DNA from: a virus
Direction: 5' to 3' (one strand)
DNA: 64,000 bases
IMG/VR virus record: IMGVR_UViG_3300028859_000013
Location: 47,324 to 111,323 of that record
Positions 16,737-60,567 of the stretch are shown here, in pieces. Within the stretch, counting starts at the first letter, position 1. Each line of letters opens with the position of its first letter. The translations under genes were made by a program, and so were the position numbers. The notes under the pieces were generated by a model, which was not told the origin of the DNA, searched no databases, and saw only the letters and a program-made list of their open reading frames with translations.

Positions 16737-16943
16737 ATGTCAAGAATAAATACTTATAGACAATTTTTAAATGAATTATTTACTATAACATCTGATGAAT
16801 TGCCTATAATTGATGATATGGCAGATAATATACATTGGAGAAAAGGTGATAAATTTGCGTTTATTGATTTTAATGGAATAAAAGATATCCCAATTAGTAT
16901 TAATAATAAGGAATTAATAAATACTACTATTAAAAATAAATAA
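16737..16943 (+). CDS. Leader-A small protein
   Basis: 68 residues. The start MSRINTYRQFLNELF carries the type A leader (QFLNE), so cleavage would leave about 53 residues. The remainder (NIHWRKGDKFAFIDFNGIKD) looks like a short SH3-like beta fold. It heads a run of Nudix and HAD genes with only 13 bases to the next start. Function unknown. Confidence 0.65.
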   Translation: MSRINTYRQFLNELFTITSDELPIIDDMADNIHWRKGDKFAFIDFNGIKDIPISINNKELINTTIKNK

Positions 16944-16956: not shown

Positions 16957-17430
16957 ATGATAAATTTTGATGAATATATAACAGAACTCAAATCTAATAA
17001 GCAAAAAACTCATAAACTTTCTGGAGTAGTTTTAATATGTAATAATAAGATATTATTAGTAAGACCAAAAAAGTTTAAGAAAAAAGAAAAAAAATGGTCT
17101 ATTCCTAAGGGACATGTTGAAGATGATATGAGTATAATAAAAACTGCAATTATAGAATTAAGAGAAGAAGCAGGAATAAAATTATCGAAGAAACAGATGA
17201 AATCAAGTGATAAATTTGTTATAAAATATGAAAAATCTGGAGTTAATAAAATATTAACTTGTTATGTTGTAGATATTGAATATGGTGATATTAACATTAA
17301 ATTAGTTAATGATATGATTTTAAAAAATTTTTTAAAGAATGAAATTATAGAAGCTGGATTTTTTTCAAAAGAAGATGCAGAAAAACTTATAGAATCACAA
17401 CAATTAGAAATTTTAAAAATTTTAAAATAA
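16957..17430 (+). CDS. Leader-A Nudix-family protein
   Basis: 157 residues. After MINFDEYITELKS (type A leader with ITE) comes a Nudix fold: KLSGVVLICNNKILLVRPK, then WSIPKGHVEDDMS and IIELREEAGI. The Nudix box keeps the metal-binding glutamates of REEAG, but the first glutamate of the consensus is M and the R of RE is I, so the box is partly degenerate. Such enzymes hydrolyse nucleoside diphosphate derivatives or RNA caps. The partial box leaves activity uncertain. Its stop codon is followed after one base by the next gene. Confidence 0.75.
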   Translation: MINFDEYITELKSNKQKTHKLSGVVLICNNKILLVRPKKFKKKEKKWSIPKGHVEDDMSIIKTAIIELREEAGIKLSKKQMKSSDKFVIKYEKSGVNKILTCYVVDIEYGDINIKLVNDMILKNFLKNEIIEAGFFSKEDAEKLIESQQLEILKILK

Positions 17431-21110: not shown

Positions 21111-22001
21111 ATGAATATAATATTATATAATAATTTTTTAATAGAGAATGCTGAATCTTCTATATCTGATTTTTTGAAAACTCAATATAATCATATATTT
21201 CCAGATCCTACTCAATCATTAAATAATCTATTTTCTGATTTTAATAAAAAATTATATACAGAAAAAAATATTTCTAATTTATATCAGATGTATTTGAAAT
21301 CAAGTCAAACTCTTACTCAAAATGAAATTAATAATGCTACTGATATTATTGGAGTAGATAAAATATTAACAGAAAGCATTAAATATTTTTATTTTTCTTT
21401 GAAACCAATTATAAATAAATTACAAAATGATCAATTTACAGTTACTGAAATATTTGGAAGATCAAGGGATAAAAGATTAGCTACATTAATGAGTTATTCC
21501 GAAGATCAATTTACAAATGCAGCAGCAACATATGCATCAACAGTAATTACCGAAATTAAAACATCTGCAGGTATAAATTCAAATACAGGTACAACTACTA
21601 CTAACACTACTAGTGTGAATCCAAATACTAGTACCAATACTACAACTGTTATACAAACTACATCAGAATCTATAACAGATAGAATAAACTATAAAATTAA
21701 TAGAATATTAGAAGCCGATAATATTGTTAATAATACAAATTTAATAAATTATAAGAAATCTGCAATAAATTGGATAAATATATCATTATTTGATATGATA
21801 AAACCTAAAATTCAGTTATTGAGTCAAATAAGTGCTAATACAAGTAATAGCGTTGATCAATTATCAACTCAAATGAAAGGTACAACTAACGAAAATGCAA
21901 AAAAGATTATTCTTAATAAAATTCTTAATATGAATAAAGAAGAATTACAAACATTAGTAAATACATTAGGATTAACAAAAGAGCAATTGGGAGATTTATA
22001 A
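21111..22001 (+). CDS. Leader-A helical protein with T-rich linker
   Basis: 296 residues. It starts MNIILYNNFLIENAES, a type A leader (NFLIE-N). Helical segments flank a linker of T, N and S at about residues 160-185, after which a second helical domain begins (SITDRINYKINRILEAD). It follows the 412-residue protein after a pentamer run and shares its plan, so the two may be partners in the head interior. No catalytic motif. Confidence 0.65.
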   Translation: MNIILYNNFLIENAESSISDFLKTQYNHIFPDPTQSLNNLFSDFNKKLYTEKNISNLYQMYLKSSQTLTQNEINNATDIIGVDKILTESIKYFYFSLKPIINKLQNDQFTVTEIFGRSRDKRLATLMSYSEDQFTNAAATYASTVITEIKTSAGINSNTGTTTTNTTSVNPNTSTNTTTVIQTTSESITDRINYKINRILEADNIVNNTNLINYKKSAINWINISLFDMIKPKIQLLSQISANTSNSVDQLSTQMKGTTNENAKKIILNKILNMNKEELQTLVNTLGLTKEQLGDL

Positions 22002-24865: not shown

Positions 24866-25612
24866 ATGATATTTAAAAGATATAACGATTTTTTGGTAGA
24901 AAATGCATTATTTAAAGGTGATTATGATAGATATGACAATTACTTTGATGATATAGAAAATAATAAAAAAACATTAAAAAATTTTGATATTGAGATAAAT
25001 TTATTGATTTCTAGATTTAAAAATCTGGATTATACTAAAATAAAGTTTAGTAAATCAAGATATAAGGATGATGAAAATTTTGAAATAAAATTTCCTATTG
25101 AGATAAAGACTTTAATTACTCCTTTTGACGGATTATTACAAGAAATAGAAAATAGAAATGATGTATTATATCATAAAATAATTAATTCATATTTTAATGG
25201 AAATGAACCAATTTTTTTATTTGATGTTCAAATAGAAAGAAATTATTTTAATAAATTTCATTTTCCAGTTGATTTACCAGTAATTTTTAGAAATCTTGGA
25301 TTAGGTAAGAAAATAATCAAAGCAGCAATATACAATTTTGAATATTTATTATTTACAAAAGAAGATGACTCATTTGAACTAAAAACCACAGTTCATTCTA
25401 TCACAGAAATGAAAGATGTATATTCTTTCATGAAAGAACAAAATATATTAATATTTAAAGATGACTTTGATTTAATTAAAAAAATATTACCTAAGTTTTT
25501 TAGTGATGATTATGATAATAAATATACATTAGATGAAGATTTTTTTATTAAATATAAAGATGAAATAACTAACGATGAATTTTTATCAGAATTATATAAA
25601 AATAAATTATAA
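24866..25612 (+). CDS. Leader-A protein of unknown function
   Basis: 248 residues from the ATG at 24866. An earlier in-frame ATG at 24818 lies inside the IS element, and only the later start gives the leader MIFKRYNDFLVENALF (type A, FLVE-N). The body is rich in F, D, K and I with alternating strands and helices (LPVIFRNLGLGKKIIKAAIYNFEYL). No motif recognised. It probably lost its upstream promoter region to the insertion. Confidence 0.6.
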   Translation: MIFKRYNDFLVENALFKGDYDRYDNYFDDIENNKKTLKNFDIEINLLISRFKNLDYTKIKFSKSRYKDDENFEIKFPIEIKTLITPFDGLLQEIENRNDVLYHKIINSYFNGNEPIFLFDVQIERNYFNKFHFPVDLPVIFRNLGLGKKIIKAAIYNFEYLLFTKEDDSFELKTTVHSITEMKDVYSFMKEQNILIFKDDFDLIKKILPKFFSDDYDNKYTLDEDFFIKYKDEITNDEFLSELYKNKL

Positions 25613-33139: not shown

Positions 33140-33415
33140 ATGAAATATATAAAAACATTTGAAGAAAAATTATATCAACCTGGTAAAAAATTGTTATGTA
33201 TTAATAATAACGTTGGTGAATTAGAAGATAAATATGATTTTACTATTGGTAAATTTTATAATATACATGAATATGAATCTTGGTGGATATCATTTATAGA
33301 TGATAAAGGAGTTGCACAATTTTTTAAACCTTCAGATGTTTCTAAAAATTTTTCAACTGCTTAAAGTTTAGAAGAGTATGAAATAATAAAAAATACTAAT
33401 AAATTTAATATATAG
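33140..33415 (+). pseudogene. Leader-B KFNI gene with in-frame TAA
   Basis: The frame opens MKYIKTFEEKLY, has an SH3-like core (GKKLLCINNNVG, then WWISFIDDKGVAQF) and meets TAA at 33362-33364 after KNFSTA. It continues in frame with SLEEYEIIKNTNKFNI and TAG. The tail matches that of 11492-11743, so the stop interrupts one gene. It would make a 74-residue protein lacking KFNI unless read through. Confidence 0.65.
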
Positions 33416-33419
33416 ATTT

Positions 33420-33863
33420 ATGATAACAAAATTTAAAATTTTTGAGGATGTAGATTATGATGAATCTAAATATATTGGAAAGTTTTGTGCTTTAAAATCA
33501 GATGATAATGATATAAAAATGACTATATCTTTATGTACTCGTGTAGATTTTCACGATGATTTTAGTGTGTTTGCTGTATTTGATTGTTTTGATATTGATA
33601 AAAATGATAATATTAGTGATCCAGTAGGTGATCATGAAAATTTTACTAAAGATGAATTTAAAAAAATTAATTTTATGACATCAATTGAATTTTATAATAG
33701 TCATAAAGATATTTGTGAGAAATTATATTTTAAAATTAGTGAAGATATTAAAAAAATAGGATTAGAATATTGGAAACTCTTAATATTAAGAGATTATAAA
33801 AAAGTATTAGATACAATACCTTATTTTAAGTTTTTTGTTGATTCTGATAAATTCAATATATAA
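33420..33863 (+). CDS. Leader-B small protein, KFNI end
   Basis: 147 residues: MITKFKIFEDVDYDE leader, SH3-like core (YIGKFCALKSDD, FAVFDCFDID), helical second half, end DSDKFNI. It follows the preceding KFNI gene after four bases. Function unknown. Confidence 0.65.
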   Translation: MITKFKIFEDVDYDESKYIGKFCALKSDDNDIKMTISLCTRVDFHDDFSVFAVFDCFDIDKNDNISDPVGDHENFTKDEFKKINFMTSIEFYNSHKDICEKLYFKISEDIKKIGLEYWKLLILRDYKKVLDTIPYFKFFVDSDKFNI

Positions 33864-33865
33864 TT

Positions 33866-33877
33866 TTTATATATACA
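33866..33877 (+). promoter_or_regulatory. Putative late promoter TTTATATATACA
   Basis: Ends 23 bases before the ATG at 33901, in line with the other elements of this type. Confidence 0.5.
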
Positions 33878-33900
33878 TAAATAGAAAAAATATTTAACCT

Positions 33901-34521
33901 ATGATAAGTAAAGAACTTCGTTATTCGGAATTAAAATTTAATGGTAAAATTTTCACTGAACAGTGGAAAATTGATGAGATTTTAATTGATAATAAATTCA
34001 ATTGGATGGTTAATGCAGAAATAAAAAATGCTAGACTTGAAATTTTTCAAGATACATTAGTTTGGAATGCTGGTATTTGGTATAATGGTGATTGGTATTT
34101 TGGAGTTTGGAGAGATGGTGAGTGGAGATATGGTAATTGGCAAAATGGAGTATGGTATAATGGAGTATGGAGAAATGGAATTTTTAAATCAGGAATTATA
34201 TACAAAGGAAATTTTTTTAAAGGAAAAATAGAAGGAGGAGAAATACGTGGTGGTAATTTCATAGATGTTGAAATATCTCCAAATGTAGTTGAATATACTG
34301 GTGATGAATATCAAGTAAAAAAACAAGAAGAACAAGAAAATAAACAAGTTGCAACAGCGCAAGCACAACCTATAACACAATCTCAGCCTAATGTAACAGA
34401 TAAAGTTAAAGTTCATAGTTCACAAGCAGAAGTTACACAACCTATTCAACCAAAAAAAGAAAGTATAAAATATAAAATATCAAGAGTGAAAAATTTTGAA
34501 TCATTCTCAAAAAATAATTAA
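33901..34521 (+). CDS. Pentad-repeat (xxGxW) protein
   Basis: 206 residues. Residues about 54-118 consist of some thirteen five-residue units with G at position 3 and W, F or I at position 5 (NAGIW, YNGDW, YFGVW, RDGEW and so on), which should fold as a regular beta-solenoid. A Q/P/T-rich linker follows, and the last residues are VKNFESFSKNN, a leader-B-like sequence placed at the C-terminus instead. A late-type element lies upstream and head-type genes follow. Probably a virion protein; the function is unknown. Confidence 0.7.
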   Translation: MISKELRYSELKFNGKIFTEQWKIDEILIDNKFNWMVNAEIKNARLEIFQDTLVWNAGIWYNGDWYFGVWRDGEWRYGNWQNGVWYNGVWRNGIFKSGIIYKGNFFKGKIEGGEIRGGNFIDVEISPNVVEYTGDEYQVKKQEEQENKQVATAQAQPITQSQPNVTDKVKVHSSQAEVTQPIQPKKESIKYKISRVKNFESFSKNN

Positions 34522-34526
34522 ATAAA

Positions 34527-34844
34527 ATGAATAAAACAACTTTAAATTTTGATGATTTCATAACTGAAAAACATCATGACAAAGAAGATAAAATTGATAC
34601 CATTACAATGGATGTTCCATTATTTATTCGTATGCTTGAATTTGCAAAAGAAGATGCTAAAACTGATATGGATTTACATAAAGCAACAGAAATCGCGCTT
34701 AAAATTTCAAAAAAAGAAGGTAAATTATCTATGGATAATTATTATAAAATCGTAAGTGAATGCGGTCAAGAAGAAGGTAAAGAAGATGATAAGAAAGATG
34801 ATAAAAAAGACAAAGACGATAAAGACGATAAAAAAGATAAATGA
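34527..34844 (+). CDS. Leader-A small protein with acidic/basic tail
   Basis: 105 residues. The start MNKTTLNFDDFITEKHH is a type A leader (DFITE-K). A compact helical domain (DVPLFIRMLEFAKEDAKTD; ALKISKKEGKLSM) follows, then a tail of alternating D and K. It overlaps the ferritin-like gene by four bases (ATGA), so the two are made together. Possibly related to small head proteins of large phages. Not assigned. Confidence 0.65.
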   Translation: MNKTTLNFDDFITEKHHDKEDKIDTITMDVPLFIRMLEFAKEDAKTDMDLHKATEIALKISKKEGKLSMDNYYKIVSECGQEEGKEDDKKDDKKDKDDKDDKKDK

Positions 34845-35152
34845 AAATGAAAAAAACTTTAAAATTTGATGCTTTTTTAAATGAAACATTATCAACTATT
34901 CCAGGTTCAAAAAACTCATCATCAGATAAACAGATTCTAAGAGCAGCAATTTTAGCGGAGCTAGATACTATCAACTTATATGAGCAAATGGCTGACGAAG
35001 CTAACGATAGAAAAATTAAAGATACGTTACTAGATGTGTCTAGAGAGGAGAAGGTTCATATCGGTGAATTTCAAACCTTACTAAAAGAAATTGATGAAGA
35101 ATATGCTGAGGAATTGAAAAATGGTAAAAAAGAAGTAAAAAACAAAGAATAA
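34841..35152 (+). CDS. Leader-A ferritin-like protein
   Basis: 103 residues. Leader MKMKKTLKFDAFLNETLS (AFLNE-T), then a ferritin-like half-bundle: AAILAELDTINLYEQMADEA and SREEKVHIGEFQTLL, giving the E, YE, EE and H ligands of a di-iron site (pattern ExxxxxYE ... EExxH). The length suits encapsulated-ferritin or rubrerythrin-like mini-proteins that dimerise to complete the site. Encapsulin cargo ferritins are loaded into HK97-fold shells by a peptide tag; here the phage leader would do the same. Iron binding is inferred from the residues. Confidence 0.72.
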   Translation: MKMKKTLKFDAFLNETLSTIPGSKNSSSDKQILRAAILAELDTINLYEQMADEANDRKIKDTLLDVSREEKVHIGEFQTLLKEIDEEYAEELKNGKKEVKNKE

Positions 35153-35164
35153 AATATAAATAAA

Positions 35165-36130
35165 ATGAGTATACCTTTAAATTGTGATCATCTTTTAAAT
35201 AAGTCACTTGATATTATATCAGCAAATTATAAAAATATATCAGATGAACAATTTTCAAATAATTCAAATCTATCTGATTTTAATTTTATTGATATCGTTT
35301 ATATTTATGCTCTTACAGATAACGAAAATACTGTAAGATACGTTGGCAAAACAAATAATCCTCACAAAAGAAGATTAAAACATATATCTGATGCTAAAAA
35401 TTTAGTCGGAAATAGACATAAATGTAATTGGATTAGAAAGGTGATAAAATCTGGAAATTCTATAAATATTAAAATATTAGAAACTTGTAAAGAGGAAGAT
35501 TGGATTAATAGAGAAAAATTTTGGATTTCTCAATTTAAAAATTTAGTTAATATATCTGAAGGAGGAGAAAGTGGAGGAAATAAAAAATATCACAAAACAT
35601 TTAAATATGTAAAAAATTGGGTTAATAAAAATATTCCAGATCTTAAAATAAAAGAAGATTGGTTAGAATATATAAAAAATAATACGTTACCTAAATTTAT
35701 ACCTAAACACCCGTATACAGCATATAAATGTAAAGGTTGGATTTCTTGGGGTGATTTTTTAAATAATGGAAAAGAAACATTCTTGGATTATATTAATTGC
35801 AAAATATGGATTAAAAATAATTATCCAAATATAACAACTCAAAAAACTTGGAGACAAAATAAACATTTATTTCCAGGATTCATTCCAAAAAGACCAGATT
35901 CTACATATAGTAAATCTGGTTGGATATCTTGGAAATCATTTTATCAAAAAGAATTTATGTCATATGATGATTGTAAAAAATGGTTAAATTATAATTATCC
36001 AAAGATTAATACTAGGAATTATTTCGATATTTTTAGCAAATCATCAGATAGACCTTTAAATATACCGAGTTGTCCATATATTGTATATAAAGATAATGGA
36101 TGGATATCTTGGTCAAAATTTCTTAGATAA
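35165..36130 (+). CDS. GIY-YIG homing endonuclease
   Basis: 321 residues. The GIY-YIG domain at 40-130 shows VYIYALTDNENTVRYVGKTN, the RR of the third motif and E in NREKFWISQF. Three C-terminal repeats with YxxxKxxGWISWxxF (near 185, 255 and 310) are of the integrase-repeat type and should bind DNA. It separates the ferritin-like gene from the next leader gene and was probably inserted as a free-standing mobile gene. Confidence 0.85.
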   Translation: MSIPLNCDHLLNKSLDIISANYKNISDEQFSNNSNLSDFNFIDIVYIYALTDNENTVRYVGKTNNPHKRRLKHISDAKNLVGNRHKCNWIRKVIKSGNSINIKILETCKEEDWINREKFWISQFKNLVNISEGGESGGNKKYHKTFKYVKNWVNKNIPDLKIKEDWLEYIKNNTLPKFIPKHPYTAYKCKGWISWGDFLNNGKETFLDYINCKIWIKNNYPNITTQKTWRQNKHLFPGFIPKRPDSTYSKSGWISWKSFYQKEFMSYDDCKKWLNYNYPKINTRNYFDIFSKSSDRPLNIPSCPYIVYKDNGWISWSKFLR

Positions 36131-36158
36131 AAAGAAACAAAAATACAAAAAAAATAAT

Positions 36159-36689
36159 ATGAAAAAATTAAAAACATTTGAATCATATGTAGATGACGCA
36201 GAAGAATCTGGATTATATGATGATATGAGTGAGCTTCTTGATAAAGCTAATATTCTTATATGTAATTATAAAGGTATTAATCCAGAAGAAAATAATGACG
36301 CATCAGATCCAGAAGAAACAAATGATTCATTAGCTAAAATTGCTACGCCAGAAGCAATTAATTTAATTAAAGAAATAAATGATAAATCTACTGAAATCGA
36401 TGAGATGGAATCAGAATCATATTATAATGAAGACGATGAATTATCTGAATCTGTAGGTGATTTAGAAGATAGTTTCGTTAAAATTAATATAGATGAAACT
36501 GATTTAGAAGATTCAGATAGAAAAAAATCTGGTAAATTGAATCAAAAAACTGGTAATATTATTATTGAAAATCCAAGTAAGACAGATGAGTATAACGCAA
36601 AAATGAGATTAGGTGGAGAAGTTATTGTTGATCCTAAATTTCCTGAAAAATCTATACATCACGTAAAAAGTTTTAATGATTTTCATTAA
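36159..36689 (+). CDS. Leader-B acidic protein
   Basis: 176 residues from the ATG at 36159, which gives the leader MKKLKTFESYVDDAEE; an earlier in-frame ATG lies inside the endonuclease gene. The body is acidic, helical and low in complexity (PEENNDASDPEETND). The end is beta-rich (GGEVIVDPKFPEKS). Possibly an internal head or scaffold-like protein. Confidence 0.6.
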   Translation: MKKLKTFESYVDDAEESGLYDDMSELLDKANILICNYKGINPEENNDASDPEETNDSLAKIATPEAINLIKEINDKSTEIDEMESESYYNEDDELSESVGDLEDSFVKINIDETDLEDSDRKKSGKLNQKTGNIIIENPSKTDEYNAKMRLGGEVIVDPKFPEKSIHHVKSFNDFH

Positions 36690-36719
36690 TAGAACCATGT
36701 AAATGAAATATATAATATA

Positions 36720-37043
36720 ATGGGATATATTTATTTATTAGAATCATCTAATGATGATGGTATAATTTACAAAATTGGTTATACAAAAAATTCAGTCCAA
36801 AAAAGAATTAATTCATTACAAACAGGCAATCCTTTTTTAATAAAGGAATTGTGCTGCTTTCAAACGAAATATAATCAAAGATTAGAAAAAAGTCTACACA
36901 ATTTCTATTCTCATTGTAGATTAAATGGTGAATGGTTCAAATTAAATATATCGGAGATTAATAATTTCATTACGTTATGTAATAAATTAGAAAATAATTT
37001 TGAAAATCTACAAAATAATCATTTTATTTCAAAAATGTTTTGA
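36720..37043 (+). CDS. T5orf172-type GIY-YIG protein
   Basis: 107 residues: MGYIYLLESSNDDGIIYKIG, then NSVQKRINSLQTGNP, then RLEKSLHNFYSHCRLNGEWF. This order fits the T5orf172 (Mug113) branch of GIY-YIG nucleases, a small domain found alone in phages. It could be a minimal endonuclease. The next 80 bases carry a host-type promoter and tRNA-Met. Confidence 0.75.
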   Translation: MGYIYLLESSNDDGIIYKIGYTKNSVQKRINSLQTGNPFLIKELCCFQTKYNQRLEKSLHNFYSHCRLNGEWFKLNISEINNFITLCNKLENNFENLQNNHFISKMF

Positions 37044-37069
37044 TATATCAAATAAAAATACTATCTTTG
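37038..37069 (+). promoter_or_regulatory. Host-type (Bacteroidetes) promoter
   Basis: TTTTG at 37038-37042, 19-base spacer, TATCTTTG at 37062-37069: the same layout as at 25627. It should drive tRNA-Met and the lipoprotein gene. Confidence 0.65.
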
Positions 37070-37122
37070 TACTCAATTCTAAAACAAATTATGTTTTTAA
37101 ACATATAATAATAGTATAATAA

Positions 37123-37195
37123 GGATCATTAGCCAAGTCGTTACGGCATCTGGCTCATAACCAGAAGATCGTTGGTTCGATTCCAACATGATCCA
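37123..37195 (+). tRNA. tRNA-Met(CAT)
   Basis: Acceptor GGATCAT/ATGATCC, anticodon stem TCTGG/CCAGA with loop CTCATAA, T arm GTTGG/CCAAC. G1-C72 pairing argues against an initiator; an isoleucine tRNA with modified C34 is possible. Confidence 0.88.
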
Positions 37196-37241
37196 CAATC
37201 ATAAATTTTTATGATTATAATAAAATAATAAATAAATAAAG

Positions 37242-37403
37242 ATGAAAAAAGTAATTTTAATGATCGCAGTTATTGCTGCTTTTACATTTGCTTCTTGTAC
37301 TCCAAAGAGTGCAAAATCTACAACTCCTGCTCAGGATTCAATTTCTGCTGTTGATTCAGCTAGTGTTGATACAGTAGCAGTTGATACTGTAGTAGCAAAG
37401 TAA
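37242..37403 (+). CDS. Small lipoprotein
   Basis: 53 residues: MKKVILMIAVIAAFTFASCT is a textbook lipoprotein signal with lipobox FASC (C19), followed by an S/T/V/D-rich tail. After signal peptidase II it would be a short surface or periplasmic lipopeptide of about 35 residues. Its composition is more host-like than the phage average. It shares a host-type promoter with tRNA-Met. Superinfection exclusion or a lysis role (spanin-like) are options; neither is proven. Confidence 0.75.
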   Translation: MKKVILMIAVIAAFTFASCTPKSAKSTTPAQDSISAVDSASVDTVAVDTVVAK

Positions 37404-37424
37404 CAAATTTGTAAATAATTTGCG

Positions 37425-37468
37425 AAAATAAAAAAATCTGTATTTTTTAATACAGATTTTTTTATTTT
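37425..37468 (+). terminator. Terminator after lipoprotein
   Basis: A 20-base perfect stem with loop TTTT and flanking A and T runs. Confidence 0.85.
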
Positions 37469-37538
37469 CTATAAACTTGTAATATTTTTTGTACTATTAT
37501 TGATAACTCAGTTGTTGAATATATAGGAGAAAAAATAT

Positions 37539-38033
37539 ATGAATACAATAATGGCATTTATTTTAGGAATGTTGTCAGTTATAGTTTTTGCAGCGATTGT
37601 AATGGGTGTAATTGCATTTTTTAGGGTAATAAAAATGAATAAGAAAATTATTGAATTAGAAACAAATATGACAAATAATGTTGGTGAAATATATGATAAT
37701 ATGCAAATACAATCGACTGATTTATCTAATATGATTTCTAAGTTAGAAAAATCTACAGAAAATAATTTTAGTGAAACACACAATATTATTAATAATAATG
37801 TAGAGACATTAAATAATGAAATTTCACAATTATCTAGTGAAATTTATCGTACAATGGATTCAAGATTCAATAAATTTGAGAATAAAGTTGATAGCGAAAG
37901 AGAAACTGTTTATAGAACAATGGATTCAAGATTTGCTAATGTTGAAAATAAAATTAATAGTGAAAATGTATCTATTAATAGAAATATTGAGTTTAGATTT
38001 AATGAACTTGATAAAAAATCAAAAGGTGAATAA
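37539..38033 (+). CDS. Membrane-anchored coiled-coil protein
   Basis: 164 residues. One transmembrane helix at about 4-28 (FILGMLSVIVFAAIVMGVIA), then a long coiled coil to the end with two copies of a YRTMDSRF unit. The start has a good AGGAG ribosome site ten bases upstream, unusual in this window. Similar proteins occur in other large phages; role unknown. Confidence 0.65.
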   Translation: MNTIMAFILGMLSVIVFAAIVMGVIAFFRVIKMNKKIIELETNMTNNVGEIYDNMQIQSTDLSNMISKLEKSTENNFSETHNIINNNVETLNNEISQLSSEIYRTMDSRFNKFENKVDSERETVYRTMDSRFANVENKINSENVSINRNIEFRFNELDKKSKGE

Positions 38034-38072
38034 CCTTTATAAAAATAATAAAAATTCAACAACCGAGTTAAT

Positions 38073-38105
38073 AAAAAATCATCAATTTTTAATTGATGAT
38101 TTTTT
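38073..38105. terminator. Bidirectional terminator
   Basis: AAAAAATCATCAATT, loop TTT, exact complement, between the genes ending at 38033 and 38082. Confidence 0.8.
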
Positions 38106-38480
38106 GTTTTTATATTTTCTATTATTGTAAGGCGTGATAATTTTATTATGTGAAAATGTGAAATTTTTAAGTTTTTTAGTAAGTTGTTTTCTTGGATTAA
38201 ACATCTTCATTAATTCTTTCATGATACTCTTATCAATTTCTTTTGATAGTTCTAAGCTAAAAATTTCTGAAACATCTGCTATAGTTGAATGATTAACTAT
38301 ATCATTAATTTTATTATATAATTTTACATTATCAATAGATAATATTTTTATTTTTCTTGTAATTTTATCAGTAGTAGAATAATAGATATTAGGAAAATCA
38401 GTAAAATATATATAAAAATGACTTTCTATAAATTTTATTTCTGATTTTCTATTTGCTGTATATTTATATAAGTTATTCAT
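38082..38480 (-). CDS. Hypothetical protein
   Basis: 132 residues, basic, beta-rich N-terminus (KFIESHFYIYFTDFPNIYY) and helical centre. Not recognised. It lies 12 bases after the dUTPase gene and is probably co-transcribed with it. Confidence 0.5.
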   Translation of the reverse strand: MNNLYKYTANRKSEIKFIESHFYIYFTDFPNIYYSTTDKITRKIKILSIDNVKLYNKINDIVNHSTIADVSEIFSLELSKEIDKSIMKELMKMFNPRKQLTKKLKNFTFSHNKIITPYNNRKYKNKKSSIKN

Positions 38481-38492
38481 TTAGTTATTTAG

Positions 38493-38972
38493 TTATTTTC
38501 CAGTTGTTCCAAATCCGCCTCTATTTTCGGAATTCAAATCATCAACATAAATAATATTAATACCATTTGAGAAAAGCCATTTTAATTTTACCCAAAATGG
38601 TGCAAACATTGTTGGCTTGATTTCAAATTGACAAATTCTTTCACTTTCATTAATTGTAATATCATCCATAGCTAATGCTGCAAATTTCCATCTATCGTTA
38701 TTACCAGAATATCCAGATTCTTTTTTTGTTGGACCATCAACAACTCCATAGTGATTTGTTTGTAATAGTTTAAAGTTTTTATATGTACCAGATCTTGGTA
38801 CTATATTACCTTGATAATATTTAGGTAGTTTCATAGAAACTCCTAAATCAAGTAATTTAAAATCGAATTTTTTAAGCGTTGTAGTTTCAGACACTCTTAA
38901 ATCTATCCAGTTTCCAAATGAAACCAATTCACAATTTTCATTGTGCAATTTAACGTATATTTTTATTTTCAT
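38493..38972 (-). CDS. dut: dUTP diphosphatase
   Basis: 159 residues, normal for a trimeric dUTPase. Motifs: DLGVSMKLP, VPRSGTYKNF (motif 2), NHYGVVDGPTK (motif 3), RICQFEI (motif 4) and NRGGFGTTGK at the C-terminus (motif 5). It hydrolyses dUTP to dUMP, keeping uracil out of phage DNA and feeding dTMP synthesis. Motif 3 lacks the usual xYxGxI spacing and has a short insertion after it. Confidence 0.85.
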   Translation of the reverse strand: MKIKIYVKLHNENCELVSFGNWIDLRVSETTTLKKFDFKLLDLGVSMKLPKYYQGNIVPRSGTYKNFKLLQTNHYGVVDGPTKKESGYSGNNDRWKFAALAMDDITINESERICQFEIKPTMFAPFWVKLKWLFSNGINIIYVDDLNSENRGGFGTTGK

Positions 38973-39010
38973 TATATTTTTAATTTTTTTAATTTAATTT
39001 TTCTATTATT

Positions 39011-39268
39011 TTAATTTTCAAATTTAACTATTTTATAATCTTTCAAATTTATATTATCAGTAGATGGATTTTTATAATTCATAGAAAATTGCGGATGCAC
39101 ATTTATCCTGTATGCAATTTCAGCTTCATCTTTAGTTTTAACGAACCATAATGGTGAATATATACATGTAGTGAAAAAATATTCCTGTCCAAATTCAGAA
39201 TCACCATTTTTTAAATCACATCTGATAATTTCGTTAGTTTCTTTGTTTATAAATGTCCAAGCTTCCAT
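39011..39268 (-). CDS. Hypothetical protein
   Basis: 85 residues, starts MEAWTFINKETNEIIRCDL, beta-rich, with F/Y/W residues throughout. It overlaps the upstream gene by 35 bases. Not recognised. Confidence 0.55.
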   Translation of the reverse strand: MEAWTFINKETNEIIRCDLKNGDSEFGQEYFFTTCIYSPLWFVKTKDEAEIAYRINVHPQFSMNYKNPSTDNINLKDYKIVKFEN

Positions 39269-39911
39269 ATATTTCTATTATTTTTTTTTCTAATTCTTCA
39301 TCAAATATCAAATCATCAAATTTAAATTTTAATACGTTTGAATTATAATTTTTTAAATTATCTAAATATGTTTTAATTTTATTATCTGATTGATTTTTAA
39401 GAATAACTCCAGTAATATCATTTGATGTGAACGCGTATAATTTTTCAGTTGTAACTAATCCATTCCAAATATGTATAGCATCCTTTGAACTGTATTTATT
39501 TGTAGTTATAAATCCTACTTTATCTATTACAAATAAATATAATTTATATCCTAAACTAATACCTCTCAATAAATCTGGAATTCCTTTTTTAAAATCTATT
39601 AAATTTAGATTATTTATATCATAAGAAAATTCAAATTGTAAATCTGTTGATATTTTAGTTTCTAAATCTTTATTAATTTTATTAATTTTATCAATAAATA
39701 TATTATCTGGTGTTATACAAAAATCATAAGATTTATCATTATAGTTAAAGTTGGATATATCATATTCAATCAATTCAATTAATGATAATCTATAATTTTC
39801 AGCATCTTCTACATAATCACTTAATCTTCTTTTTAAATATGTTCTTTCAGTTTTTTTTAAATCAGCTAACACATTTTTAGTGAAAGCTTCAAATTGTTTT
39901 ATATAACTCAT
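39234..39911 (-). CDS. Leader-B hypothetical protein
   Basis: 225 residues, start MSYIKQFEAFTKNVLAD (type B leader), then a helical region and a mixed alpha/beta domain (GYKLYLFVIDKVGFITTNKY). No catalytic motif seen. It lies between the methylase and a small gene in a reverse run. Confidence 0.6.
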   Translation of the reverse strand: MSYIKQFEAFTKNVLADLKKTERTYLKRRLSDYVEDAENYRLSLIELIEYDISNFNYNDKSYDFCITPDNIFIDKINKINKDLETKISTDLQFEFSYDINNLNLIDFKKGIPDLLRGISLGYKLYLFVIDKVGFITTNKYSSKDAIHIWNGLVTTEKLYAFTSNDITGVILKNQSDNKIKTYLDNLKNYNSNVLKFKFDDLIFDEELEKKIIEIYGSLDIYKQRN

Positions 39912-39928
39912 TATTTAATTATTTTATC

Positions 39929-41002
39929 TTATGAATTCCAATAATCATCATCATTTTTTATGTCTACTATTTTAACTTCATTTATAACTTGATTAAATTT
40001 TGGATCCAAATCTACTTGATTTGAAATTAGTTTATCTGCGAATTCTTTAAAAATTTTAAATTTATTATTTGAATCCATATCGGTTAATTTAATAAAAGTT
40101 TTAGGATCATAATTTAAAATCAATAATTCTGTACCTTTTGTATCTTTTGTTTCAGAAAAACTTGCAGATGAACGAAAGAAATCTTTTTGTAACCAAATAT
40201 ATTCATCTTTAGGTAAATATTTGGATAATTCTGGAAAATCGTAGTAAGATAATGCCCAACGGGATTTTGTTGTTTTTAAAAGTTCTAATAGTCTAATATG
40301 AGTTTTTTGATTGAAACTATCTTTTACTCCATACCATGAGGCTCTTTTTCCAGTGTCATTGCCATCTTCATCATTACTGAAGTATGGTGGATCTAAATAA
40401 AAAAATGTATCTTTTGAATCATACATATTTATCAATTCTTCAAAATCTAAGCTATGAACGTTTGTTATTTTAGATAATTTATTTTGATATTCTTTTTTCT
40501 TTAATTTATTTATTAATGCATATAATTTAATTTTATTAGTGCCACCTATACCACTATATCCCCCACTTCTAGGGTAAACACCGTTAAACGTTGAAGTTAA
40601 TAAAAATGCATATTTTACTCCAGCATCAAAATCTGGTATATTTGTTGGTGGATTATCTAAAAAATTAGTTTCACTCTTATCATGTTTATATGAGTAAAAT
40701 ATATCTTTATGAAATTTTTTATATTCTTCTCCAGTTTTATCTGTTTTTAAAAATCCATTATTTATTTCATCCTCTATATGAGATAAAAAAGTTTTGTGCT
40801 CTTTTAAGCATGCAAATAAATTTGCCATATGTTTATTGTAATCATTATAAATTATATTTTCAACGTGCGAATAGTCCAATTTAGGACTAGTATATACCCA
40901 CATAGCGCCACTAAATGGTTCAGAAAATGTTTTTATGTCTTTTGGTATGTAGTTGTATATCCAGCCGGCCATACGGCTTTTTGCCCCGAAATATGAAATC
41001 AT
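39929..41002 (-). CDS. DNA adenine-N6 methyltransferase, D12 class
   Basis: 357 residues. N-terminal MISYFGAKSRMAGWI is the S-adenosylmethionine and start motif of the Dam/DpnM class, FSEPFSGAMWVY follows, and FFYLDPPYFSN gives the DPPY catalytic motif near residue 205. It methylates adenine, probably to protect phage DNA from host restriction. The target sequence cannot be read from this. It has an extra C-terminal region of about 60 residues. Confidence 0.88.
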   Translation of the reverse strand: MISYFGAKSRMAGWIYNYIPKDIKTFSEPFSGAMWVYTSPKLDYSHVENIIYNDYNKHMANLFACLKEHKTFLSHIEDEINNGFLKTDKTGEEYKKFHKDIFYSYKHDKSETNFLDNPPTNIPDFDAGVKYAFLLTSTFNGVYPRSGGYSGIGGTNKIKLYALINKLKKKEYQNKLSKITNVHSLDFEELINMYDSKDTFFYLDPPYFSNDEDGNDTGKRASWYGVKDSFNQKTHIRLLELLKTTKSRWALSYYDFPELSKYLPKDEYIWLQKDFFRSSASFSETKDTKGTELLILNYDPKTFIKLTDMDSNNKFKIFKEFADKLISNQVDLDPKFNQVINEVKIVDIKNDDDYWNS

Positions 41003-46489: not shown

Positions 46490-46972
46490 TTATACAGTTG
46501 GAACAACTGTGGTTTGTTGTGTAGTAGTTGTTGGCTGAACTGTTGTAGTTTCGGTTGTTGATACAGGATTTTCAACACCATCATCATAAATTATAAGACA
46601 AGGTACCTTTGAAGAAATATTGATCATCCATGCTATTTCTTTCATTCTAACAAATGGATGATCAATATTTTTTATAGTGTCACGTAATGAATCTAAATTG
46701 TTTTTATTTACATAAACATGAATTCCACCTGATCTATTTTTACCATCCCAACCAATATCAAAATTCGTAGTAATAAGTGCTAATTTATCTGTTGATTCTA
46801 ATATTTTATTCAAATTTGGATTTTGATCATTTCCACTCATATCCACATTAACCTTAAATCCAGATTTATTTAAAGCAGGATGAATAGCATTAATGATATT
46901 TGTTGCTATGGTTTTATTTTGTTCTTGTGATTGATAAGCCTTCTTTAGTACCGCCATGTATTGAGGTTTCAT
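46490..46972 (-). CDS. Hypothetical protein whose leader lies out of frame
   Basis: 160 residues from the ATG at 46972, helical then mixed, with a T/Q/V-rich tail. Directly upstream, 47006-46970 reads MKKLKDFIGFVNET, a good type A leader (FVNE), but one base out of frame with the body. If a base is missing or slippage occurs, the true protein is leader plus body. As written, the leader frame runs off and the body has a clean ATG. Confidence 0.55.
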   Translation of the reverse strand: MKPQYMAVLKKAYQSQEQNKTIATNIINAIHPALNKSGFKVNVDMSGNDQNPNLNKILESTDKLALITTNFDIGWDGKNRSGGIHVYVNKNNLDSLRDTIKNIDHPFVRMKEIAWMINISSKVPCLIIYDDGVENPVSTTETTTVQPTTTTQQTTVVPTV

Positions 46973-47032
46973 TTACAAAACCAATAAAATCTTTTAATTT
47001 TTTCATTTTTTTTCATTTTTTTTAATTATATA

Positions 47033-49370: not shown

Positions 49371-50270
49371 ATGTTAAATATTATAAATTGGGATAATTTT
49401 ATATGTGAAAGAAATAGTTATAATAAATTGACCACAAATTTATCTAAAGTTATATTAAATGTAATAAACTACAATATTGGAAAATTGATATTGTATAAAA
49501 ATATATCGATAAAAAATTCTATAATTTTATCAGATGATATAAAATTTTCTGATGATATTATAAATATAAAAATATCAAATAGAAATTATGGAAATATGAA
49601 TCCTAATAGTATAATATTTAAAGAAAATGAAATAATCGGATTGATAATAAATTTAGAAATAATTTTAACTCAGAGTGAATTAACTTCTAAAAAAATATCA
49701 AACACTAATATAATTATTGATACAATTGAACATGAATGTCTACATATTATGGAAAGATATTTAACATATATGAACAATTCTGATTTTTCAAATTCTTGGA
49801 AAATGGGTGAACGTTTATATCAAATGAATGAAAAATATAAAAAATCTAAAATATGGAGTGATATATCACATATAATATATTTATCTATGCCACATGAAAT
49901 TAGGGCCAGACTTCAACAGCTAAATTCGTCATTAGAAAGAAATAATGTAAACGGTATAGAAAATTCAATAGATTTTATAAAAAATACAAAAATATATAAA
50001 GATATAGAATCTTTATCTAATATAAATTCTAAATTAGTATTAAAAGAATTAAAAAATGATTCAAATTATAATGATATTATTAAAGATTTTAGTATTATAT
50101 TTTTAAATAATACTAAAATAGATTATGAAAAAAATTTTATAGATTATTTAAATATAATTACAAAAAAAAATAAAAAATTAATAGAAAAATTATTAAAAAT
50201 TTCTTATAATTTTGAAAATTGTGAATATCCAGATATAGATATTGATTATAGTAAATATATGATAAAATAA
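49371..50270 (+). CDS. Leader-A HExxH metallopeptidase-like protein
   Basis: 299 residues. Leader MLNIINWDNFICERNS (FICE-R). IEHECLHIMERYL near residue 123 has the HExxH zinc motif, and a later helix IIYLSMPHEIRARLQQL carries an E that may be the third ligand. The same helix and spacing occur in the protein at 60598 (FYLSLPFEVNARVSSV), so the two are paralogues. Probably a head-packaged peptidase. Substrate unknown. Confidence 0.65.
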   Translation: MLNIINWDNFICERNSYNKLTTNLSKVILNVINYNIGKLILYKNISIKNSIILSDDIKFSDDIINIKISNRNYGNMNPNSIIFKENEIIGLIINLEIILTQSELTSKKISNTNIIIDTIEHECLHIMERYLTYMNNSDFSNSWKMGERLYQMNEKYKKSKIWSDISHIIYLSMPHEIRARLQQLNSSLERNNVNGIENSIDFIKNTKIYKDIESLSNINSKLVLKELKNDSNYNDIIKDFSIIFLNNTKIDYEKNFIDYLNIITKKNKKLIEKLLKISYNFENCEYPDIDIDYSKYMIK

Positions 50271-55602: not shown

Positions 55603-56664
55603 ATGTCAAGACCAAAACCTGCAAATTTATCAACACCAAAACCGGCAAATTTAATATGGACAAAGGAAGAATGTAAGAACGAAGCATTAAAATATATTTA
55701 TAAAAAAGATTTTATAAAACAATCATATGGTTCATATCAAGCATCACTTAGAAATAAATGGATAGATGAAATTTGTTCTCATATGATACCATTAGGAAAT
55801 AAATATAACAGATTAATTTATAGAATTATATTTCCAGATAATGTTTGTTATGTTGGATTAACTAATGATTTTGATAGAAGAATATATGAGCATTTAAATA
55901 AAAAAGGTACAGTATATTCTTATATATACAAAATAAAATTATTACCTATTAATATTGAAAAATTAACTGATTATATACCAATCACAGAAGCTAAAATACA
56001 AGAAGAATATTGGAAATGCAAATCAGAAGATGATGGATATATATGTTTAAATATTGCTAAAACTGGAGGTGTAGGTGCAAATAATCTAAAATGGAATAAA
56101 TATGAATGTCAAAATGTAGCTAATAAATATAATACAAAAATTGATTTTATAACAAACGAAAGTTCAGCTTATAATTCTGCTAGAAAATATGGTTGGCTAG
56201 ATGAAATTTGTTCTCATATGATAGCATTACATATTAATTGGACTAAAGATGATTGTAAAAATGAAGCATTAAAATATAATCATAGGGGAGAATTTTCAAA
56301 AAATAATCGTATTATATGGGGATTTGCACAAAAACATAATTGGCTAGATGAAATTTGTTCTCATATGACACTGAAGCATAATAGTTATAGTAAAGATGAT
56401 TGCAAAATAGAAGCATTAAAATATAATAGTAGAAATGAATTTAAAAAAAATAATAATAGTATGTGGCAATGTTCTAATAGGTATAAATGGACAGATGAAA
56501 TTTGTTCACATATGATACCATTAAGGCATACTTGGACCATAGAAGAATGTAAAAATGAAGCAAAAAAATATAAAAACATAACAGCATTTGCAATAAAAAA
56601 TCATAATATGTATGAATTTGCAAGAAAAAGAAAATGGATTGATGAAATATTCAATAAAAAATAA
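55603..56664 (+). CDS. GIY-YIG homing endonuclease with repeat units
   Basis: 353 residues. A GIY-YIG core lies at about 68-150 (RLIYRIIFPDNVCYVGLTND, DRRIYEHL, and E in AKIQEEYWKC). Around it are six copies of a unit W-T-K-(D/E)-(E/D)-CxNEALKY ... WLDEICSHM (one before, five after), probably DNA-binding. Located between the 428-residue gene and the late sigma gene. Confidence 0.8.
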   Translation: MSRPKPANLSTPKPANLIWTKEECKNEALKYIYKKDFIKQSYGSYQASLRNKWIDEICSHMIPLGNKYNRLIYRIIFPDNVCYVGLTNDFDRRIYEHLNKKGTVYSYIYKIKLLPINIEKLTDYIPITEAKIQEEYWKCKSEDDGYICLNIAKTGGVGANNLKWNKYECQNVANKYNTKIDFITNESSAYNSARKYGWLDEICSHMIALHINWTKDDCKNEALKYNHRGEFSKNNRIIWGFAQKHNWLDEICSHMTLKHNSYSKDDCKIEALKYNSRNEFKKNNNSMWQCSNRYKWTDEICSHMIPLRHTWTIEECKNEAKKYKNITAFAIKNHNMYEFARKRKWIDEIFNKK

Positions 56665-56674
56665 TTAAATATGA

Positions 56675-57049
56675 ATGGCAAGATACATTAATGATACGGA
56701 TTTCTATTATGAGGTTTTAATTAGCAAAGGCAAAGGAAAATTAACTAGAAAAGCTGAAAATATGATTATACTAATAGGAGAAGAAATGATCAAAAAATTT
56801 GAAAGAAAGTATAAAACTTCAGATGATAAATATGATTGTATGCAGCAGGGCATAATGATGATGCTGCTAAACTGGAATTTATTTAATGAAAAAAAATATT
56901 CATCAGCGTTTCCATATTTTTCGGAGATTTGCAAGCGTGGAATAGCAGGTGGTTTAAATGTAATTTATCAGAAGAAAAACAATCAAGACATGCCTAAAAT
57001 GATAAGTTTAAGTAGTGCAAATGATGGCAAAGGTCTTCATAATATTTAA
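56675..57049 (+). CDS. Late sigma factor, gp55-like
   Basis: 124 residues, shorter than T4 gp55 (185). FYYEVLISKGKGKLTRKAEN and YDCMQQGIMMMLLNWNLFNE, then YSSAFPYFSEICKRGIAGG, match the sigma region 2-like core of gp55 (T4: [20 protein letters not shown] then YITQACFNAFVQRI). It directs host RNA polymerase to late promoters, here perhaps the TTTATATATA elements. The C-terminal clamp-binding tail of T4 gp55 is not obvious; it ends DGKGLHNI. Confidence 0.78.
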   Translation: MARYINDTDFYYEVLISKGKGKLTRKAENMIILIGEEMIKKFERKYKTSDDKYDCMQQGIMMMLLNWNLFNEKKYSSAFPYFSEICKRGIAGGLNVIYQKKNNQDMPKMISLSSANDGKGLHNI

Positions 57050-57077
57050 AAAATATTTAAAAAATAATATATACAAT

Positions 57078-57341
57078 ATGGCACTAAGAGATTGGGTCAG
57101 AAATGACGGATTAATTAATTCAACTCCAGGACCCTCAAATTCATATAGAGGAGATGAAGAATTTATAATGTTAGTTAGAGATATTCAATTCCAAGATATT
57201 CAGACTGGAGCATATAATAAATTTCCAACATTATATGATGTTGCACAAGCAAACGGCGGTAGAAATTATATTAATGTAACAGATAACACTAAACTTGTTC
57301 AAGATCCTCCTAATTTGAATGCATTAAGAAATAGATATTAA
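57078..57341 (+). CDS. Small structural protein
   Basis: 87 residues from the ATG at 57078; the longer frame begins inside the previous gene. MALRDWVRNDGLINSTPGPS and later FPTLYDVAQANGGRNYINV look like a compact neck or tail component. It lies between late sigma and head completion genes. Family not named. Confidence 0.6.
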   Translation: MALRDWVRNDGLINSTPGPSNSYRGDEEFIMLVRDIQFQDIQTGAYNKFPTLYDVAQANGGRNYINVTDNTKLVQDPPNLNALRNRY

Positions 57342-57344
57342 ATT

Positions 57345-57872
57345 ATGGGAGCAAATAACGCATCATTTGGGAATCGCAGGACCAAGAAAGGGAAAAACAA
57401 ATATATTCAAGGTCTTTATAATATTGAAAATGAAGAAAAATACATTGGAATTATGCCAATAAAATATTTTAGTTCATGGGAATTAGGATTTTGTAGATTT
57501 TGTGATTTGAATGATAGAGTTTTAAAATGGAGTTCAGAGAGTTTAGAAATTCCATATCAAATAAAAAATAGTTTAGGTATTATAGAAACTCATCGTTATT
57601 ATCCAGATTTTTATATAGAAATGATAGATAATAATGATCCAGAAAGATATGATAGATTTGTGATTGAAATTAAGCCAAAGCACGAAACAGAACCACCTAA
57701 ACAACCACAAAGAGAAACATTAAAAACACTAGAAACGTATCAATATTCTTTAACAGCATATAAGAAAAATATTCATAAATGGCATTTCACAAAAGATTGG
57801 TGTGATAGACATAGTTTGAAGTTTATAATAATTTCAGAAGATGATTTGAAAAAATATGGAATAATAAAATGA
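57345..57872 (+). CDS. Head completion nuclease, gp4-like
   Basis: 175 residues (T4 gp4: 150). Pattern KYIGIMPIKYFSSWELGFCR, FCDLNDRVLKWSSESLEIPY and HRYYPDFYIEM, then RFVIEIKPK. This is the gp4 head-completion family with a PD-(D/E)xK centre (D in PDF, E and K in IEIKPK). It acts on the packaged head before tail joining. A SWxLGFCRFCD block is typical. Confidence 0.83.
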   Translation: MGANNASFGNRRTKKGKNKYIQGLYNIENEEKYIGIMPIKYFSSWELGFCRFCDLNDRVLKWSSESLEIPYQIKNSLGIIETHRYYPDFYIEMIDNNDPERYDRFVIEIKPKHETEPPKQPQRETLKTLETYQYSLTAYKKNIHKWHFTKDWCDRHSLKFIIISEDDLKKYGIIK

Positions 57873-58639: not shown

Positions 58640-58670
58640 AATAAATAAATTTAAAATGAACATACGCAAT

Positions 58671-58680
58671 TTTATATATA
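58671..58680 (+). promoter_or_regulatory. Putative late promoter TTTATATATA
   Basis: Ends 21 bases before the GTG start of the portal gene. Confidence 0.5.
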
Positions 58681-58701
58681 ATAAAAATTAATAAATAAAC
58701 A

Positions 58702-60459
58702 GTGGCAACATATAACAGATATAATCAGCCAAATTCAATGTATGATTTTGGACGAGGTAATGTAGGAAAAAGTTTTGGTAATAAAATATTAAGAAAATTG
58801 AGTAATTTCGGAATGGATGATCAAGAAATGGTTGTTAGAAATAGTCAGGCTATTGGAGCATTTCAAGATACCAGTAATTTACTTTACGAACCTGGTACAA
58901 ATATGTACGACTTATTTACAAAAAAAATAATATCTAAAATATTAGAAAAGAAATCTATCGCATATTTAGATCGTAGATATTTGGATAAAAGAAAAATTTT
59001 ACACCAATATGCAATAAAGGAAGAAATAAAAGATTATGTTACCAGAATAGCAGAAGAAGCAATTAATTATGATGATGATAATTATTTTTGTACTGTTACT
59101 GATTTGCCAGATAATTATGATCAATCAATCAGAGTTAAATATCAAGAAAATTTTAAAAAAGTCTATAACTCATTTAATTTTAACGACGGATTAACTGCTT
59201 GGAATTACATGAAAACATTTTTAATTGATGGATTTTTATCATTTGAAATTGTTTATGATGATGACCAAAAAAATATAATTGAACTTAATTTATTGGATCC
59301 ATTAACATTAATTGTAGCTGCTGAGCCAGGTACTGGAACTGTAGTATGGATTCAAAATCCAGATGTTCCTCAATTAAGAAGAGTTTTATTAGATGCTAAT
59401 ATTATTTATATTTCATATTCAAATAATTTAGATTATGACGAAACAAGTTATGTTGAAGGATTAATCAAACCTTATAATCAATTAAAATTATTAGAGTTTA
59501 CTAAATTAATGTACAATTTAAATCAAGCTTCAATATATAAAAAATTTGTTATTCCTGTAAATGGACTGACTCGTCAACAAGCTGAACAGCAAATTACTCA
59601 ATTGATGAGTGAATATCATGAAGATATTGAATGGGATGATACAACAGGAGTACCATATATAAATGGCTCAACTAAAATACCTCATTCAAAAGATTATTGG
59701 TTTCCAACATCTGAATTAGGAACTCCAGAAATGGAGATTCTACAACCACAACAAGCTGAATTAAATGAAGATATATCTTTACAGTGGTTTTATAAATCAT
59801 TTAAAAGAGCATCTAAAATGCCTTTTTCAAGATTAGATGAAGATCAGGGAGGTGGTAATTTTTATGATGATACTGCTTCAATTACTATGGATGAAATAAG
59901 ATTTAAAAATTTTGTTGGTAGATTAAGAACATTATTTAAAGAAGTTTTAGTTAAACCATTAAAAATACAAATGGTATTAGACTTTCCTGAATTAAGTAGT
60001 GATAGAGTATTTGAAAGTTATATTAAATTAAATTTTAATTCTAATGATTTATTTGAAGAATGGAAATACTTAAACAATTTAGCAAAAAGAGCAGAAATAT
60101 CATCAACTTTATCAAGCAATCTACAAGACGGTGAGGGGAAACCTTACCTTTCGATTGAGTGGATTGTGAGAAATATTATGAAATTTACTGATAAAGATAT
60201 TGAATCTAATAATAAATATAAAATGATGAGCGGTACAGCAGGTGAAGGAGGAGGAATGAGTGGTGGTATGCCAGGTGGAGGTGAAGGTGGTATGCCAGGT
60301 GGTGGCGAAGGTGGTATGCCAGGTGGAGGTCAAGCCCAAGGTGGAGGTCAAGCCCAAAGTGGAGGTCAAGCTCAAGGTGGAGGTCAAGCTCAAGGTGGAG
60401 GTCAAGCTCAAGGTGGAGGTCAAGGTGGAGGTCAAGCCCAAGGTGGAGCGGAATTTTAA
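58702..60459 (+). CDS. Portal protein, gp20-like
   Basis: 585 residues (T4 gp20: 524), start codon GTG. Head-vertex dodecamer through which DNA enters. Diagnostic stretches: LDRRYLDKRKILHQYAIKEE, FLIDGFLSFEIVYDDD, LLDPLTLIVAAEPGTGTVVW, SEYHEDIEWDDTTG, SELGTPEMEILQP and KMPFSRLDEDQ. The last 75 residues are a G/Q/A/M repeat (GGMPGGGE, then GGGQAQ units) not expected in portals, probably flexible and exposed. Confidence 0.92.
   Translation: MATYNRYNQPNSMYDFGRGNVGKSFGNKILRKLSNFGMDDQEMVVRNSQAIGAFQDTSNLLYEPGTNMYDLFTKKIISKILEKKSIAYLDRRYLDKRKILHQYAIKEEIKDYVTRIAEEAINYDDDNYFCTVTDLPDNYDQSIRVKYQENFKKVYNSFNFNDGLTAWNYMKTFLIDGFLSFEIVYDDDQKNIIELNLLDPLTLIVAAEPGTGTVVWIQNPDVPQLRRVLLDANIIYISYSNNLDYDETSYVEGLIKPYNQLKLLEFTKLMYNLNQASIYKKFVIPVNGLTRQQAEQQITQLMSEYHEDIEWDDTTGVPYINGSTKIPHSKDYWFPTSELGTPEMEILQPQQAELNEDISLQWFYKSFKRASKMPFSRLDEDQGGGNFYDDTASITMDEIRFKNFVGRLRTLFKEVLVKPLKIQMVLDFPELSSDRVFESYIKLNFNSNDLFEEWKYLNNLAKRAEISSTLSSNLQDGEGKPYLSIEWIVRNIMKFTDKDIESNNKYKMMSGTAGEGGGMSGGMPGGGEGGMPGGGEGGMPGGGQAQGGGQAQSGGQAQGGGQAQGGGQAQGGGQGGGQAQGGAEF
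60250..60450 (+). repeat. Gly-rich tandem repeat in portal 3' end
   Basis: Two unit types in tandem: about 24 bases encoding GGMPGGGE (three copies) and 18 bases encoding GGGQAQ (six or so copies, with one S variant). GC content here far exceeds the surroundings. Confidence 0.85.
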
Positions 60460-60475
60460 AATATATTTTTTAATA

Positions 60476-60510
60476 AAAACAGAGAACTTAAATTTAGTTC
60501 TCTGTTTTTA
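60476..60510 (+). terminator. Terminator after portal gene
   Basis: AAAAACAGAGAACT, loop TAAATTT, AGTTCTCTGTTTTT. Confidence 0.85.
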
Positions 60511-60567
60511 TTTTATATACAATTTTTAATTGACCAGAATCATAAATTATATTATGACAGTTATTTT

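Follow-up and report, generated by a model that had tools for sequence, protein, structure and literature searches.

Phage capsids are thought to be the ancestors of encapsulins, whose best-known cargo is a ferritin-like domain. Here we describe a gene that appears to address the same type of cargo to the head of a bacterial virus. The gene (34841..35152, +) resides in a 64,000-nucleotide window, which constitutes the final 64 kb of the 111,323-base virus record IMGVR_UViG_3300028859_000013, and it encodes a 103-residue, leader-bearing, encapsulin-type ferritin-like protein. Its assignment as head cargo is well supported by comparative sequence data, and we consider it quite probable that the phage uses this protein as an internal cargo that is delivered by its leader, cleaved, oxidizes iron and protects the genome. 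Searches of an open-access library turned up no published account of a ferritin-like protein as cargo of phage heads.

The closest described counterpart is the encapsulated ferritin domain of P. furiosus (PFC_05175), which is the best match to the window protein in both sequence and structure, has the same ferroxidase residues, and resides inside an HK97-fold shell, as the window protein is predicted to do. However, the P. furiosus domain forms a fusion with the shell protein of an encapsulin, a compartment of cells, whereas the window protein is free, carries a predicted cleavable leader, and would occupy a DNA-filled virus head. EncB and EncC of M. xanthus and EncFtn of R. rubrum likewise are two-helix ferritin-like proteins with the Glu32/Tyr39/Glu62/His65 site. 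Encapsulated ferritins of this type form decamers in which the site lies at a dimer interface. In EncFtn, these four residues are contributed by two chains to create the di-iron centre, and the Glu62Ala change abolishes activity (PMC5012862, PMC11202242). Proteins of this type oxidize iron but need a shell to hold the mineral (PMC8346489). They are loaded via a peptide that is bound by the encapsulin shell, whereas a motif of this kind is absent from the C-terminus of the window protein.

Its predicted delivery parallels that of T4 IPI, IPII, IPIII and Alt, with which it shares a short N-terminal propeptide, a characteristic 4/7/8/10 residue spacing and an L/I-x-E cleavage motif. To our knowledge, no T4 internal protein is a metal enzyme, and the known activities are those of a restriction inhibitor and an ADP-ribosyltransferase. 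The capsid-targeting sequence (CTS) of the T4 internal proteins comprises 10-19 N-terminal residues, in which positions 4 and 7 matter for targeting and positions 8 and 10 for cutting, and T4 gp21 cleaves after L/I-x-E (PMC9026906). A different type of virus also encodes a ferritin-like protein, the rubrerythrin-like protein of Pyrobaculum filamentous virus 1 (A0A140F3M3), which was the best match to the window protein in a viral structure library (E = 0.0096).

A ferritin-like domain with a complete di-iron site

The open reading frame (ORF) begins with ATG at position 34841, ends with a stop codon at 35150-35152, and encodes 103 amino acids (aa), in agreement with the original prediction of a ferritin-like protein of this length. 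Residues 29-101 constitute an encapsulin-type ferritin (EncFtn/EncB-like) domain whose match to known families is well beyond chance. The NCBIfam EncB_fam model matches with an E value of 1.1e-17 (64 bits), TIGR04535 matches with an E value of 1.3e-12, and the Pfam Rubrerythrin model scores 31.1 bits, above its cut-off of 22.8; no PHROG family matched. The nearest solved relative is the P. furiosus domain (PDB 5n5e, E = 3.7e-20; 2e0z, E = 3e-19), which ranks ahead of M. xanthus EncC and EncB and of R. rubrum EncFtn. Two long helices make up most of a single-chain AlphaFold2 model (mean pLDDT 88), and a Foldseek search with this model again returned 5n5e as the best PDB match, with a TM score for EncB of 0.94 over the target. 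The length of about 100 residues and the two main antiparallel helices of the model are as in proteins of the EncFtn/EncB type. Compared with close phage relatives, the gene has a dN/dS of ~0.1 and is therefore under purifying selection.

In the model, helix A (residues 29-53; 34925..34999, +), which also contains invariant alignment columns, bears E40 and Y47, and helix B (residues 57-84; 35009..35092, +) bears E70 and H73. When aligned with R. rubrum EncFtn, E40 (34958..34960, +) corresponds to Glu32, E70 (35048..35050, +) to the bridging ligand Glu62, and H73 (35057..35059, +) to His65 (PMC5012862, PMC11202242), while Y47 (34979..34981, +) corresponds to Tyr39 (PMC5012862). All four ferroxidase-centre residues thus are present, and none of them varies in an alignment of 60 sequences (phage, archaeal and bacterial). 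The di-iron residues that had been proposed require partial reassignment: the LYEQMA segment does supply Y47, but its E48 is not a ligand, and the ligands are E40, E70 and H73 together with Y47. The proposed ferritin-like half therefore holds as an encapsulin-type domain with a complete ferroxidase site, and ferroxidase activity of the window protein is likely.

A grafted leader and the head genes of the phage

Residues 1-15 (MKMKKTLKFDAFLNE; 34841..34885, +) are predicted by the T4 CTS rule (PMC9026906) to form a capsid-targeting sequence. This leader ends in FLNE, and its residues F9, F12, L13 and E15 match the spacing of T4 CTS positions 4, 7, 8 and 10. Comparison with homologues predicts that the prohead protease cuts between E15 and T16 (34883..34888, +), which would restore a cellular-type N-terminus of the form (X)LSxIP. 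The alignment and the graft comparison described below suggest a mature protein of residues 16-103 (34886..35149, +), which would begin with TLSTIPGSK. The cleavage motif, LNE↓T, is kept in three other sequences (L034, L035 and L037).

We defined the type A leader motif as [FYW][DENSQR]x[FYW][ILVM]xE. This motif starts 8 of the 156 ORFs in the 111-kb record, compared with 0.18 expected in shuffles (maximum 2), and only one internal occurrence was found in 32,813 residues, results that bear out the earlier suggestion of a type A leader (AFLNE). Plain L/I-x-E at N-termini exhibits no genome-wide enrichment (0.218 versus 0.201), and therefore the claim of a leader depends on the aromatic pair. 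A head-targeting leader is present, as the original prediction of a capsid tag implied, but it is a T4-like, N-terminal cleavable sequence rather than an encapsulin-type C-terminal peptide. The C-terminus of the window protein (ELKNGKKEVKNKE) carries no TVGSL-like encapsulin-loading motif, and the phage shell that was found is of the Gp23 type, with no encapsulin search having been made of the record itself.

The junction between the leader and the domain carries additional information. Cellular homologues from Methanosarcinaceae, Nitrospira, DPANN and CPR are ~93 residues long, begin with MLSKIPIDL and have no leader. These stand-alone proteins (MLSKIPxD start) mostly exhibit 45-58% identity to the window protein, have the same site, and share the N-terminus that the window protein would have after the predicted cut. 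In the window protein, the leader ends in LNE and is followed by TLSTIPGS, such that cleavage would turn an MLSxIP-type start into TLSTIP. The protease motif also directly precedes a cellular-type start in L038 (INE↓ILSKIPVD), L133/L134 (LSE↓LLSKIPLD), L137/L141/L142 (INE↓LLATTPVD) and L145 (LNE↓ITSAVPTD). This exact graft is found in five of the six phage lineages that keep the (X)LSxIP start, whereas composition predicts ~0.018 per lineage. In the sixth lineage, the 411-kb record that contains L130, the leader is of another kind (MNPRKAFEQALAKTA) and is common to adjacent genes; five clustered matches to a shared leader start, MNxRxAFE, were seen in this viral record (G043:C1:2460-4374), one of them on a ferritin-like gene. 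Overall, 12 of the 14 phage-type homologues have an L/I-x-E in front of the domain, compared with 5 of the 46 cellular ones (Fisher 3e-7, or 1e-5 after dropping three near copies), in a comparison whose rows are non-independent, whose phage extensions are longer, and in which one of the 14 phage-type sequences, L113, is a contig from a bacterial bin. The virus thus appears to have acquired from cells a small protein that oxidizes iron, to have added a removable head address label, and to pack the protein alongside its DNA.

The head genes of the same phage are consistent with this arrangement. The record ends a few kilobases past a T4-type portal protein gene (58738..60459, +; PF07230, E = 7e-63), and no Peptidase_S77 match was obtained in the record itself because it stops shortly after the portal. 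However, over 56102-64000 (7.9 kb to the record end) and over 33781-40149, contig G002 matches the window at 100% identity. It carries the same ferritin gene and, by this identity, is the same phage. Past the portal, G002 encodes a 790-aa protein that combines prohead protease and scaffold, as recognized from protease families and repeats (L119 5779-8151, -), and then a Gp23-type capsid protein. The phage thus has both a prohead protease and a gp23-type head. The protease lies at the start of the 790-aa protein, where the S80 family scores above its cut-off, and the repeats (YSEYIAE type) contain ten matches to the leader motif versus 0.06 expected. The repeat unit in the core of the phage head is thus the address motif itself.

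The gene could instead be an auxiliary metabolic gene whose product, an ordinary ferritin-like protein of the cytoplasm, handles iron or oxygen during infection and has an extension that is unrelated to the head. Indeed, an encapsulin Pfam match is present in 3 of the 30 genomes of cellular relatives and absent from the other 27; most cellular relatives, as judged by this survey, stand alone and are not encapsulin cargo. Similar-looking N-terminal motifs also occur on many phage proteins. However, this explanation is improbable because in five phage lineages the protease motif closes the extension precisely where the cellular N-terminus begins, because the leader motif is repeated in the scaffold, and because in other phages the domain is joined to the portal or resides in head-gene proteins (see below).

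Several other genes of this phage carry comparable leaders. The start of the ferritin gene overlaps, by ATGA, the stop of a 105-aa partner gene in the same operon (34527..34844, +; leader NFDDFITE, no Pfam match), and this pairing recurs in L005, L006 and L007. Kinship of the partner with L114 (DUF5661 plus ferritin) was ruled out (E = 4.2). A NUDIX hydrolase with the type A leader FDEYITE (16957..17430, +) is predicted from its motif and domain match to be a second head enzyme. By the motif, type A leaders also begin a 68-aa protein (16737..16943, +; YRQFLNE) and three proteins that have no Pfam match, of 296 aa (21111..22001, +; YNNFLIE), 248 aa (24866..25612, +; YNDFLVE) and 299 aa (49371..50270, +; WDNFICE). 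On the opposite strand, positions 46966-47024 (-) are 80% identical in DNA to the ferritin leader region and would encode MKKLKDFIGFVNE in a reading frame that differs from that of the ORF after it (46490-46972), which might represent a frameshifted leader gene.

A second leader type was also observed. Dozens of small ORFs begin with MKY[IL]KxFE and many end with KFN[IL], such that a leader without the protease motif is paired with a C-terminal tag (window 6527-9198, 11492-11743 and 33140-33863; L015 8642-12868). In addition, L015 1567-2826 (record bases 1567-2826, outside the window) encodes a 419-aa protein that consists mostly of NNTLTSESLYDENTK-type repeats.

The domain in head proteins of other phages

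The ferritin domain also occurs within larger proteins of other phages. In L009/L040 and L043, it follows a PF06381 portal within one ORF, with the portal score of L043 being just below its cut-off. In L042, a DUF2213 domain comes after it and a portal gene is nearby. In L132 (3192-5240) and L135 (3840-6617), it resides within a NUDIX-containing protein, and in L132 the NUDIX-ferritin gene is followed by one homing-endonuclease gene, the head maturation protease gene, and then the capsid protein gene. The recurrence of NUDIX hydrolases with phage ferritin domains fits an oxidative-damage theme without proving it. Eggerthella phage LE2-3, a deposited isolate and the one weak relative of the portal-type domain among phage records, encodes a 948-aa protein, LE23_74, with a weak rubrerythrin match four genes upstream of its capsid gene. 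No relatives of the window protein itself were found in 50,697 phage records, and PF20034 had no match in 16 phage records in a search that lacked a positive control. As separate observations, the portal-ferritin ORF at L009 3480-6137 also has a topoisomerase IB domain at its C-terminal end (PF01028, E = 2e-26), and a NUDIX hydrolase gene, judged by eye, is the next gene to the ferritin domain in L145 (4374-4841).

The portal fusions in L009 and L043 would also suit a purely structural use of the four-helix fold, for example as a part in core or portal-vertex assembly that performs no iron chemistry. We find this very hard to credit, because the four site residues are invariant in 60 sequences while the surface varies, a pattern that a structural part need not keep, and because relatives that share the capsid lack the gene.

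A tree built on the 70-residue domain is poorly resolved; it calls for five changes of the phage label, of which at least three are forced by supported branches. This topology needs several separate recruitments of the domain by phages, and unrelated viruses seem to have brought it to the head by differing routes. L049 groups with Treponema and Clostridiales proteins whose genomes carry an encapsulin gene. Searches of several leader-bearing relatives (e.g. G047 and G055) with T4-type portal, protease and capsid models yielded no head genes, which may reflect divergence or partial records.

An accessory gene and its possible role

The ferritin gene was absent from all 29 wider-relative records that had been picked by capsid protein or by a syntenic 206-aa gene, a search whose positive control gave 11 of 11 and in which many records are fragments. 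In L219, another leader-type protein (MKSYVNFIKE) occupies its locus. By this distribution the gene is accessory, as are the genes for the T4 cargo proteins IPI, IPII, IPIII and Alt, which likewise are non-essential and variable (PMC9026906).

For the window protein as genome-protecting head cargo, we infer four steps: packaging, cleavage, ferroxidase activity and benefit. The 15-residue T4-like leader would bring the ferritin protein into the prohead core, where the prohead protease would cut after LNE and free a native-length protein within the head. The paired di-iron site, formed by E40, Y47, E70 and H73 from two subunits, would oxidize Fe2+ and use up oxygen or peroxide, either in the head or in the cell after injection alongside the DNA. 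Such oxidation could shield the genome, whether packaged or incoming, from oxidative damage driven by iron. This protective role is the weakest step, and we judge its chances to be slightly short of even.

A number of observations weigh against the proposal. Two curated cut-offs are not reached, with EncB_fam scoring 64 bits against 90 and Pfam EncFtn-like scoring 23.3 against 27, and the S77 score of the G002 protease is 26.4, just under its cut-off of 27, although the S80 family passes. Both the type A motif, whose excess is ~40-fold, and the graft test were defined after looking at the data. Furthermore, the related phage proteins L039 and L041 have no L/I-x-E in their extensions, L131 has no N-terminal extension at all, and the gene is dispensable across relatives.

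It is also possible, if somewhat doubtful, that the protein is packaged in the same manner but acts in the newly infected cell, where it could take up iron or peroxide early or disarm an oxidative host response. Among the T4-type CTS proteins, IPI inhibits restriction, and Alt is a further enzyme carried in the head (PMC9026906). Moreover, the locus resembles an exchangeable cargo slot, given the gene's absence from the wider relatives and its replacement in L219, and a NUDIX enzyme bears the same kind of leader. Sequence cannot separate action in the head from action after injection. A small decamer, if formed, would have to dissociate or unfold to pass the tail.

A broader and rather unlikely extension is that phage heads serve as iron or redox compartments like encapsulins, with the HK97-fold head as the shell that such ferritins need to hold iron and the virion oxidizing and carrying iron with its DNA, and that phages have converged on this state several times through leader grafting and fusion to portal or head proteins. 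If the window protein does function as head cargo, then an encapsulin cargo has been addressed to real phage heads by a tag of its own, and more than once, which would be the mirror image of encapsulin history. As far as is known, this would be the first enzymatic iron chemistry within the head of a tailed phage, and it would bear on the amount of iron that phages carry in the environment. In addition, the list of leaders, which needs nothing but sequence, predicts a whole set of head cargo for uncultured phages.
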